DNA of 64,000 nt. It comes from Methanosalsum zhilinae DSM 4017 (lineage in GTDB: Archaea > Halobacteriota > Methanosarcinia > Methanosarcinales > Methanosarcinaceae). The notes under the pieces are model-generated. The model searched no databases and was not told the DNA's origin. It saw only the letters and a list, made by a program, of their open reading frames with translations. The position numbers and the translations under genes were made by a program. Positions 37,349 to 41,510 of this stretch are shown in pieces. Numbering within the stretch: the stretch's first letter is position 1; the number at the start of each line of letters is the position of its first letter. Where the stretch lies: contig NC_015676.1 of NCBI RefSeq assembly GCF_000217995.1, positions 62,001-126,000 of the forward strand. Reading direction: 5' to 3'.

Positions 37349-39457
37349 TCAGCTGTCATGGAATTTATTTCTGAGCTTCTCATAAAATATTTTCTGGTTA
37401 CCTTCAGTTCTTCTTGCCAATCTTTCTACAATAAGTTCAGGCGTGCTTCTTGCAATATAATTGTATCTGGGGTTCCTGTCAACTACCAGGTTCAGTTCAG
37501 CATCAAGGCCCTCTGCCTCAATACCATCCACTCTGATATTGCATTCAGTGTTTTCCATGATCAGCTCCGGAAGATGGGATACAAATATTGCTGCACTGTT
37601 CTGTTTTTCTGCAAGCATTTCAAGTATTCCTGCAATGATCCTTGCTGAAGCTCCGGGTTCTGTGATCGATTCCAGTTCATCAACCAGTACGATCTTATCT
37701 GTAGGATCTGCCACTGATGAGAATTCTACAAGTGTGGATTCAAATGCACCAGCATCAAGTGTTCCTTTAGATTTTGCAAAGTAATACATTTTCTCACAGG
37801 GTCCTATTTCCATATCAAGGCAGGGAACAGGAAGTCCCATATGTGCTAGTACTGTACACTGGGCAATGAGGTCCAGAAGAGACGTTTTCCCCCCTGAATT
37901 TACACCACTGAGTATTACCACACTTTCGGAATTGTCTTCAGGACTAAATGATGTATCTCCAACTGAGTAATCGATAGGTGTAATCTCTGTATTGCTGGAA
38001 CTGAGAAAAAGATTCCTTGCACCTCTGAACCCGATTCCCGTATTTTCTATAAGTACCGGCATTGAAAGGTCATATTCACAGGAAAAATGGCCAATTGCAA
38101 AACCTACCTGGAAGTCCAGTACTTCCTTAACCATACTGCGAACCGGTATGATATACTGGTGCAGGTCCCTTGCAACCTTGCGAATGTGTTCAATAGTTTT
38201 TCTTTCGAGCTTGTGCTCAAGCTGCTGCCTGAGTGATCGGACTGCTGATTTATCGATCTCCAATGGGTAGGTGATATGTGTGAAAAAAACCGAATCCAGA
38301 AGAATAATACTTTTCTGATCAAGTTCCAGTTCAGATGCAATCCTTTTTTTTGTATCCCTAACAACTTCCATATATGAGTGATATATTTCTCTCTCCAGCA
38401 TATCCCTTATTTCAATTTCCCCGCTTATAGCGCGAACCATATCCTGACCGCTTAGCGTGAGCTTTCTATCTTCCAGTATTCTGGAGATCCTTGATGTTGC
38501 GTCCTTTACCGCATCCTGGATACACCTGTCCATATGCTCTATGCTCAGGCGCAGCCTGTCTATTTCAGGATCAATTCCCTGTCGCAAACTCCCAGTTTCA
38601 TTGATGTTTAGCAGTATATGTTCTATCCTGTCAGGATCGATATCCCCGAGATGCTCAAATGTTTCATATCCTGCGTTCTTTACTGTGCGAACAACCTCAA
38701 GTGATGCGGTTATTGTATGAAGATTGTGGGCAAAGAAAGAAATGGTATTTTCAGGTATGATCTGCCATTCCTCAGCCTGCCTTAGATCGGAAATGAACTC
38801 CGGATCCACATCTGATGGAAATTCCATTTCCAGAAAACTTCTGTGGGAACAGATGATATGAGAATAGCCGGATATGGCATCAATCAGCTGGTCAGGTAAT
38901 TCTACTAGCTGAACGCTGAACGAATCTGAGAACTGCTGGCGTGCATATTCAAAGTCCTGGCTGTTTGCTGTGATCAGGACTCGATCTCTTATTTTTGGTC
39001 TGGGATATTTCAGACTCAATGGCCTGACCTCTGCCAGTTTTTCCATGAATCCGGGATCAAAATTGATTTTTCGGGCAATCTCTGTATATTCAGAGGTCAT
39101 TTGACGTACGGATTCTATTTCTTGCATCTGAGAGGATGGGTAGGGAAGGTAGATGTTCAGCTTTTCTCTGGCGTATTTTGAAGGTGCGAACCCTTTGATG
39201 ATCTCCAGCACTTTTTCATAGATATCTCTTGCTTCACGGGTTTTGAGAAATTCTGATACTTCTTTTCCTTTACTGATGGCCCTTGCTTCATGTACCAGGG
39301 ACACTGCAAATCTGTGACTTATTCCTTCAATTTCACAGATGCTGGCAATGTCGCCGTCAAGGATTGCAGTAACTGTGATTTCCTCATTTCCAAAGTGCTT
39401 TATTAGGCGCTGGGCCATTTTATCCCCAACACCAGGAATATCCTGAAGATTAATCAT
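37349..39457 (-). CDS. Archaeal MutS-related ATPase with N-terminal HhH
   Basis: The protein has 702 aa. A helix-hairpin-helix at residues 1-40 (IPGVGDKMAQRLIKHFG) binds DNA. A long coiled middle, including an extended helical part near 350-450, leads to a MutS-type ABC ATPase. This has Walker A LSGVNSGGKTSLL, Walker B IVLVDELESITEPGASAR and an FVSHLPEL switch. It lacks the mismatch-binding MutS domain I and the Smr domain of bacterial MutS2, so it is an archaeal MutS2/MutS5-like protein, probably acting on recombination intermediates. Confidence 0.75.
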   Translation of the reverse strand: MINLQDIPGVGDKMAQRLIKHFGNEEITVTAILDGDIASICEIEGISHRFAVSLVHEARAISKGKEVSEFLKTREARDIYEKVLEIIKGFAPSKYAREKLNIYLPYPSSQMQEIESVRQMTSEYTEIARKINFDPGFMEKLAEVRPLSLKYPRPKIRDRVLITANSQDFEYARQQFSDSFSVQLVELPDQLIDAISGYSHIICSHRSFLEMEFPSDVDPEFISDLRQAEEWQIIPENTISFFAHNLHTITASLEVVRTVKNAGYETFEHLGDIDPDRIEHILLNINETGSLRQGIDPEIDRLRLSIEHMDRCIQDAVKDATSRISRILEDRKLTLSGQDMVRAISGEIEIRDMLEREIYHSYMEVVRDTKKRIASELELDQKSIILLDSVFFTHITYPLEIDKSAVRSLRQQLEHKLERKTIEHIRKVARDLHQYIIPVRSMVKEVLDFQVGFAIGHFSCEYDLSMPVLIENTGIGFRGARNLFLSSSNTEITPIDYSVGDTSFSPEDNSESVVILSGVNSGGKTSLLDLIAQCTVLAHMGLPVPCLDMEIGPCEKMYYFAKSKGTLDAGAFESTLVEFSSVADPTDKIVLVDELESITEPGASARIIAGILEMLAEKQNSAAIFVSHLPELIMENTECNIRVDGIEAEGLDAELNLVVDRNPRYNYIARSTPELIVERLARRTEGNQKIFYEKLRNKFHDS

Positions 39458-39501: not shown

Positions 39502-40374
39502 TTATAAATTTTCGCAATCCTCAGAAAATTCATTAAGGGTACAGTTTCCGGTTCCCTTTTGAACCCTGTATCGGTCATTTTTTGCCATAGTACTGAAATT
39601 TGCAGAGATCGCAGGCTGCATTCTGCTTGCAAGCTTGCGGTTTCTTCTTTTAGCTATATACTGGGAATCATAATAGATCTCCCACAGGTCCTCAAGCCCT
39701 TTATCTGCATTATCTCCGCTTTGAAGATCTACCAGAAATGAGGGATCAACTTCACATACCTGGGATTCAAAACCCAGCAAATTTCCATTTCCAATCCATG
39801 AAATATTTTTATCTATAACTCCTATAACAATATCCGGATTTTTTCTGGCAAGCCACTGGCAGAACATGTCGGATGTTCTGTGATCTGTGCTGACCCTAGC
39901 AATAAGAAGATTACCAAATAGCTCAGGACGGGTGAACATGCACATATGATAAAACTCCTTCTTTACCTCTTTCATGTACCTGAAATACCTTTGTCCCTGC
40001 CTGTACTGGGGTATGTATAGCATTTCTTTTCTTCCTTTACACGCCTTTAAGAGATCAACAAGTTCCAGTGGTTTGCATTTCCTGTGTCTGAGTACAGTTT
40101 CTATAAACTCAACAGGATTTTGATGCAGATTGATATCTGAGGGATCATTTCTGAAGAAAACCTGTGCTGCAAGCTATGATATGCTGCAATGGTCCCATGA
40201 AGTATCAAAAAATGATGATGAACTCTGTTTTTCAATTTCTTTTTCTGCATATTCGCTAAGCTGTGTGCTCTGGATGCATTCATCACTGAATACGATATCA
40301 ATATCCGTGTACTTTTCAGTTGCAAGACAGGCGGTAAGTATTCCTCTCACATTTTGCCGAAATCTAATGATCAA
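39502..40374 (-). CDS. DUF4130-family DNA-metabolism protein with in-frame TAG (possible pyrrolysine)
   Basis: If the TAG at 40174-40176 is read through, the frame encodes 290 residues with the special residue at position 67. Without readthrough it splits into 66 aa and a later ATG piece from 40023. No frameshift is needed. The C-terminal end (LWEIYYDSQYIAKRRNRKLASRMQP) fits DUF4130 (TIGR03915-like), whose genes pair with the adjacent radical SAM family. The TTG start at 40374 overlaps the radical SAM stop, with GGAGG eight bases upstream. It could be a selenocysteine-like pyrrolysine insertion, a regulated stop, or a young pseudogene. Confidence 0.6.
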
Positions 40375-41510
40375 GATCCGCTCCTCCAGAAATGGTCAAG
40401 CCGAGTTTGGCTTTTCCCCTGAATTATTATGTATGGCCTTGCTCTTGAAACTGCAACCCCCAGTCTTGCAAGTTCCTGCTCACTGTTGATAGTATCTGCA
40501 TGGATGATCCTTTCTGCACTGACTGGTCCAATCCCTGGTACCATGAGCAGTTCATGCCGATTTGCACTGTTTATATCAACAGGATACATGTCAGGATTGG
40601 CAGCTGCAAGAAGTATTTTTGGGTCATCATCAGTTAGATTTCCGATGTCATCGAATATGGGATCAAAATCCCGTGCTTTGAGGCCATAGTCCTTGAGAAG
40701 ATAGGAAGCCTGATAGAGACGTGTTTCTTTCCATCTGGGTGAGGATGGTTCCTTTTCAAGAGGAGTACCCGGAACAGGATCAAAACTCATAAAGTAAGGT
40801 CTTCTCAGACCATATCTGTTCATAAACCTGTTAACGGTCTGTATCATATTGCGATCAGACTCATTTAGAAGACCTACCACAAACTGGGTATCATTTGCGC
40901 CTATGATTCTGGTATCATTATGTTCACAACGTCTTCTGCGTACCATATCATGTATCCACCTGAGGCGCATGAGAACATCATTCTGATAATCAAAGTTTGG
41001 GCATATATGGGAATAATTGACTGAGCTGGTAGTCTCGGCGTTTATTCCGAATTTGTTTGCATACTCTGAGATGGTCTCGAGAAGATGTTTCGGGGTACCA
41101 GGCATGAGCCGCACATGTATGTATCCATTAAATCCCTGTTCTCTGAGAAGTGTTACTACCTCAAGCTGGCGATATGCGGTATTCTCAGGATCACCAATTA
41201 TTCCTGAAGAAAGAAATAATCCTTCAATGGTGTTTTTTCTGTAGAATGACCAGGTAATTTTAGCAATTTCCTCAGGTGAGAGTGAAGCTCTTGCAGTATC
41301 TCTCATACTTCGGTTTGGACAGTACAGGCATTCTCCTGAACAGTGGTTTGTAAGAAGTGTTTTGTATAGCTGTATGCACCGTCCATCCGGTCCAAAGGCG
41401 TGGCATACTGCGGTCTGGTTACAGCTATCATATTTTGTTCCGGCTGATAGCAACCTGATCCTTTCCTGGAGTGTTCGATGAAAACCAGATGTATGGGTGT
41501 CACTGGTCAT
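40371..41510 (-). CDS. Putative DNA modification/repair radical SAM protein
   Basis: The protein has 379 aa. The radical SAM cluster motif CSGECLYC (CX3CX2C, near residue 57) opens the barrel. A helix-hairpin-helix (HELLMVPGIGPVSAERII, residues ~318-336) closes the protein and should contact DNA. This matches the TIGR03916 family, found beside DUF4130 genes and sometimes linked to uracil-DNA glycosylase. The chemistry is unknown. It runs directly into the DUF4130 gene with a TTGA overlap, so the two are coupled. Confidence 0.82.
   Translation of the reverse strand: MTSDTHTSGFHRTLQERIRLLSAGTKYDSCNQTAVCHAFGPDGRCIQLYKTLLTNHCSGECLYCPNRSMRDTARASLSPEEIAKITWSFYRKNTIEGLFLSSGIIGDPENTAYRQLEVVTLLREQGFNGYIHVRLMPGTPKHLLETISEYANKFGINAETTSSVNYSHICPNFDYQNDVLMRLRWIHDMVRRRRCEHNDTRIIGANDTQFVVGLLNESDRNMIQTVNRFMNRYGLRRPYFMSFDPVPGTPLEKEPSSPRWKETRLYQASYLLKDYGLKARDFDPIFDDIGNLTDDDPKILLAAANPDMYPVDINSANRHELLMVPGIGPVSAERIIHADTINSEQELARLGVAVSRARPYIIIQGKSQTRLDHFWRSGS

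Follow-up and report, generated by a model that had tools for sequence, protein, structure and literature searches.

The DUF4130 gene of Methanosalsum zhilinae is interrupted by an in-frame TAG that we consider likely, though by no means assured, to be a near-neutral change of a glutamine codon to amber, leaving the cell with a truncated protein and some full-length protein that carries a non-essential pyrrolysine. The gene lies in the window, the whole 64,000-nucleotide stretch analyzed here (positions 62001-126000 of the M. zhilinae genome, a single contig of 2,138,444 bases with a completeness of 99.99). This reading is built on the codon itself, its derived state, the pyrrolysine (pyl) genes of the organism, the intact frame and a constraint averaged over the divergence from the nearest relative (genome G020). 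The TAG would have arisen from CAG (Gln) by one C-to-T transition, at a position under loose constraint in a gene that is otherwise intact and whose product, linked to a radical SAM protein, putatively acts in DNA repair or modification. Since pylTSBCD are present, UAG would be ambiguous in this cell: part of translation would halt and yield a 66-residue fragment, and part would, we infer, insert pyrrolysine and yield the full protein at some level. Pyrrolysine at position 67 would have no special role, the protein would probably still work, and the mutation would persist because a lower dose of a dispensable protein is tolerated.

The interrupted gene and its neighbors

The gene (39502..40374, minus strand) runs over 290 codons from a TTG start to a TAA stop if its TAG is read through. 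Examination of the frame corroborated the original prediction of a single interruption: the TAG at codon 67 (40174..40176, minus strand) is accompanied by no frameshift and no second stop. The predicted tight coupling with a radical SAM gene was also found, as a 4-base TTGA overlap (40371..40374, minus strand) between the start of the DUF4130 gene and the TGA stop of its upstream partner (TIGR03916-like; 40371..41510, minus strand). A MutS-like ATPase gene (37349..39457, minus strand) lies downstream, an order also seen in G006, the third genome of the genus. As had been proposed, a family-like C-terminal part follows the TAG: the Pfam DUF4130 domain (PF13566; residues 111-254, 39613..40044, minus strand) lies wholly 3′ of it and passes with 34.9 bits against a gathering score of 27. 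The match to TIGR03915 is below the cut-off (33.2 vs 112.25 bits) and spans residues 49-254; it begins before the TAG, which thus falls within the conserved span of the family, ahead of the core domain. The match of the radical SAM partner to TIGR03916 is likewise below the cut-off (275.3 vs 343.5 bits), a value reached by none of the 20 relatives searched.

Over 45 codons on either side of the TAG, the DUF4130 frame has a better coding score than all five other frames, and the homologues continue straight across the site in the alignment. Since both sides are coding and homologues read through the site, the locus is a real interrupted gene and a chance frame is excluded. When sites with coding on both sides were sought in an 864 kb sample of the genome (about 40%), this TAG was the only one that passed; the same filter also retained two TAA and three TGA candidate sites. 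A sequence search for a solved structure of a homologue found none, and AlphaFold gave no usable model from a two-sequence alignment (mean pLDDT of 32).

Codon 67 and selection among relatives

A DUF4130 homologue is present in 62 of the 101 genomes of the family, and only that of M. zhilinae has an internal TAG. None of the 30 homologues that could be read at codon 67 shares it, which answers the question, raised with the original prediction, of whether the amber codon is common to related methanogens. The nearest relative (G020, same genus, 88% identical) has CAG (Gln) and the syntenic gene of G006 has CAA (Gln), whereas the 28 homologues from outside the genus have K (n = 13), S (n = 9), L, R, A, E, G or M. 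TGA codons inside four homologues were considered as further interruptions and rejected, as they are the natural C-terminal stops. This comparison indicates that TAG is derived by a single C-to-T transition in the M. zhilinae lineage, in a column that is Gln in both genus relatives and appears free to vary outside the genus.

The syntenic copy of G006 (L087) is only about 37% identical, aligns poorly at its N-terminus and has no early ATG; this divergence suggests that DUF4130 evolves fast in Methanosalsum. In another genus of the family, a DUF4130 homologue is split over two frames (L129, G066:C2:1464801-1467800): either the gene breaks elsewhere too or the assembly contains an indel error.

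Against G020, the dN/dS of the DUF4130 gene is 0.36 overall, 0.40 for the part 5′ of the TAG and 0.32 for the part 3′ of it, where non-synonymous changes (23 of 40) are fewer than expected (p = 0.001). Both halves thus seem to have been under some purifying selection in this two-species comparison, an average over the whole divergence that can neither date the TAG nor show selection since; the TAG could postdate the selection signal, a point against the reading that we favor. The values for the radical SAM and MutS-like genes are 0.13 and 0.10, respectively. The ratio of DUF4130 to radical SAM dN/dS is 2.7, and other species pairs span about 1 to 3.4; DUF4130 therefore appears to be usually less constrained than its partner. 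The DUF4130 value of 0.36 exceeds those of all other pairs among the 35 examined, a further point against our reading, although the radical SAM value is likewise highest in this same pair. Derived amino-acid changes amount to nine in M. zhilinae and five in its sister, without marked excess.

The start codon is TTG in M. zhilinae and ATG in G020 and most relatives. As a second change besides the TAG, it may lower expression, which also counts against our preferred explanation. However, the first ATG of the G006 gene is well inside the gene, so that its start has to be GTG, TTG or some other codon; therefore, TTG alone is not a lesion. Among the 20 genomes searched, all six with a strong radical SAM match (besides that of the window) also have DUF4130 and all six genomes of the family without such a match also lack DUF4130, a co-occurrence that speaks for the two genes acting together as one unit.

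Use of UAG in the genome

A search for pylTSBCD, advised with the original prediction, recovered the whole set in one intact cluster: pylT (tRNA-Pyl, anticodon CTA), pylS, pylB, pylC and pylD. PylS, PylB, PylC and PylD each exceed their own NCBIfam cut-off; a PylC-like Pfam model yielded no match, whereas the curated PylC model matches strongly. Three mtmB genes with one in-frame TAG apiece and one mttB-like gene (named from its sequence) with an in-frame TAG were also detected. This intact gene set and these interrupted methyltransferase genes indicate that the cell can decode UAG as pyrrolysine. In the 40% genome sample, 42 of the 739 frames that look coding terminate at TAG (the methyltransferases account for four), and TAG seems to serve as the stop of about 5% of genes, which is another point against the reading that we favor. 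The median distance to the next in-frame stop is 7 codons for TAG, 9 for TAA and 8 for TGA. The pylB and pylD genes of M. zhilinae themselves terminate at TAG (L040:9229-12182). Because pyl genes are present and yet about 5% of genes, including these two, end at TAG, the codon looks ambiguous in this species, sense or stop. In some archaea, all TAG codons are reportedly read as pyrrolysine, according to a 2025 report. UAG ambiguity in archaea carrying pyl genes has been described in a review (PMC2933860).

Counts of interrupted frames by stop type are limited by same-frame neighbors and shadow frames and were given little weight. By our reading, 305 frames aligned with G006 contain no clear internal nonsense codon and leave one frameshift candidate. 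Elsewhere in the M. zhilinae genome (about C1:566152-567050, L071:16152-17050), the 303-residue query from a gene that is whole in G006 finds matches in two different frames, with 78% and 93% identity, possibly due to a frameshift or a sequencing error.

Our analysis also revealed a histidine kinase gene (PAS-PocR-PAS-HisKA-HATPase; G000:C1:1568890-1571535, minus strand) with a TAG at codon 112, inside the first PAS domain. In G020, the histidine kinase gene carries a TAG at this very codon (gapless alignment of 886 codons, dS of 0.31), which suggests that an in-frame TAG can persist outside methyltransferases in this genus. The homologue of G004 (L136) aligns across the site, with Gln there. 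Between the two Methanosalsum species, dN/dS is 0.36 before the TAG and 0.18 after it; the 150 codons directly 3′ of it are weakly constrained (0.43), and because of this re-initiation further downstream is possible. A second TAG near the C-terminus, also common to both species, may be the stop. A PylS search of G020 (a 72% complete MAG) gave no match, despite the in-frame TAG of its histidine kinase; this absence probably reflects missing sequence. A published screen reported a histidine kinase cluster with an in-frame UAG in other Methanosarcinaceae (PMC3639795). For testing pyrrolysine beyond methyltransferases, the histidine kinase is a better candidate than the DUF4130 gene. The same earlier computational screen included M. 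zhilinae but cannot predict genes with only non-pyrrolysine homologues (PMC3639795); therefore, the DUF4130 gene would have escaped it.

Alternative explanations and known pyrrolysine genes

The main alternative is that the TAG is a recent nonsense mutation and the first step of decay, the protein being in effect lost and any read-through incidental and below need. We regard this as unlikely, but it deserves serious consideration: TAG is derived in the M. zhilinae lineage only, TTG stands where the sister has ATG, the absence of the gene and of its radical SAM partner from several genera of the family indicates dispensability, and a copy from elsewhere in the family (L129) is split between frames. 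However, the gene has no second lesion, its own lineage shows no excess of changes (nine vs five), the radical SAM partner is constrained and the genome is equipped to read UAG. Of this alternative, already raised with the original prediction, the origin of the codon stands, but UAG suppression would be expected to give some pyrrolysine-containing protein too. Sense codons in relatives combined with other lesions had been named as evidence against pyrrolysine; the relatives do have Gln, but the gene carries no other lesion. A sequencing or assembly error is very improbable: only one base separates TAG from the CAG of the sister, but it would have struck a complete one-contig genome (completeness 99.99) in a frame that is otherwise clean.

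There is similarly little chance that the cell benefits from pyrrolysine at position 67 or from the UAG as such, through a functional residue or a switch tying a repair protein to pyrrolysine supply or methylamine growth. The complete pyl system and the position of the TAG inside the conserved span of the family are compatible with such a use, but the TAG is private to one species, both genus relatives have Gln and the residue varies beyond the genus. RNA structure 3′ of the TAG is not beyond chance either (z of -0.34 vs -2.99 for an mtmB control). According to a review, UAG can be translated without structure of this kind (PMC2933860). Slimmer still is the prospect of a full-length radical SAM-linked DNA-repair protein that depends on pyrrolysine and would couple repair or DNA modification to methylamine growth. 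It is hardly credible that the gene now yields a 66-residue N-terminal peptide plus a separate product from a downstream restart. The ATG at codon 118 does open a 173-residue frame; however, there is no ATG, GTG or TTG between codons 67 and 118, a restart at 118 would cut off the beginning of the DUF4130 domain (residues 111-254) together with the conserved stretch ahead of it, and codons 68-117 show a mild non-synonymous deficit (dN/dS of 0.41, p = 0.06).

The tolerated amber change that we favor thus retains part of the proposed new pyrrolysine protein: the pyrrolysine system and the intact frame are present, and read-through would restore a full-length product. A new functional site is not retained, as the TAG is shared by 0 of 30 homologues. 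The origin of the TAG is probably recent and near-neutral and, as far as sequence comparison goes, the codon gives no hint of a novel role of pyrrolysine. Apparent read-through of an amber reporter in M. acetivorans was 20-30% (PMC2933860). If read-through were confirmed, the DUF4130 protein would be another pyrrolysine protein outside methyltransferases and would show how amber codons enter ordinary genes while the inserted residue has as yet no function. The TAG kept in the histidine kinase of two Methanosalsum species offers a sharper test of the spread of pyrrolysine beyond methyltransferases. Annotation pipelines may label such amber-interrupted genes as pseudogenes.

The locus resembles the DUF4130/TIGR03915 genes and their TIGR03916 partners (putative DNA repair or modification) by its domain, its gene order and its overlap with the radical SAM gene, but the M. 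zhilinae copy is divergent: both it and the G020 copy depart from the family at the same 33 of 105 strongly conserved columns. Like the methyltransferase genes mtmB, mtbB and mttB, it has one in-frame TAG in a pyl organism, with a complete pylTSBCD set and homologous coding on both sides of the codon. However, each methyltransferase class keeps its TAG at a constant position (PMC2933860), whereas that of DUF4130 is private, not conserved among orthologues, and in a column variable outside the genus. The closer likeness in these respects is to Thg1 (tRNA-His guanylyltransferase) of M. acetivorans, in which a non-essential pyrrolysine is encoded by an amber codon that was acquired neutrally and in no other species (PMC2933860). 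Both cases combine an in-frame amber codon private to a single species, sense codons in the homologues, an intact frame and pyl genes. They differ in that the pyrrolysine of Thg1 was physically observed and is not essential for activity (PMC2933860), whereas that of the DUF4130 protein is predicted from sequence.
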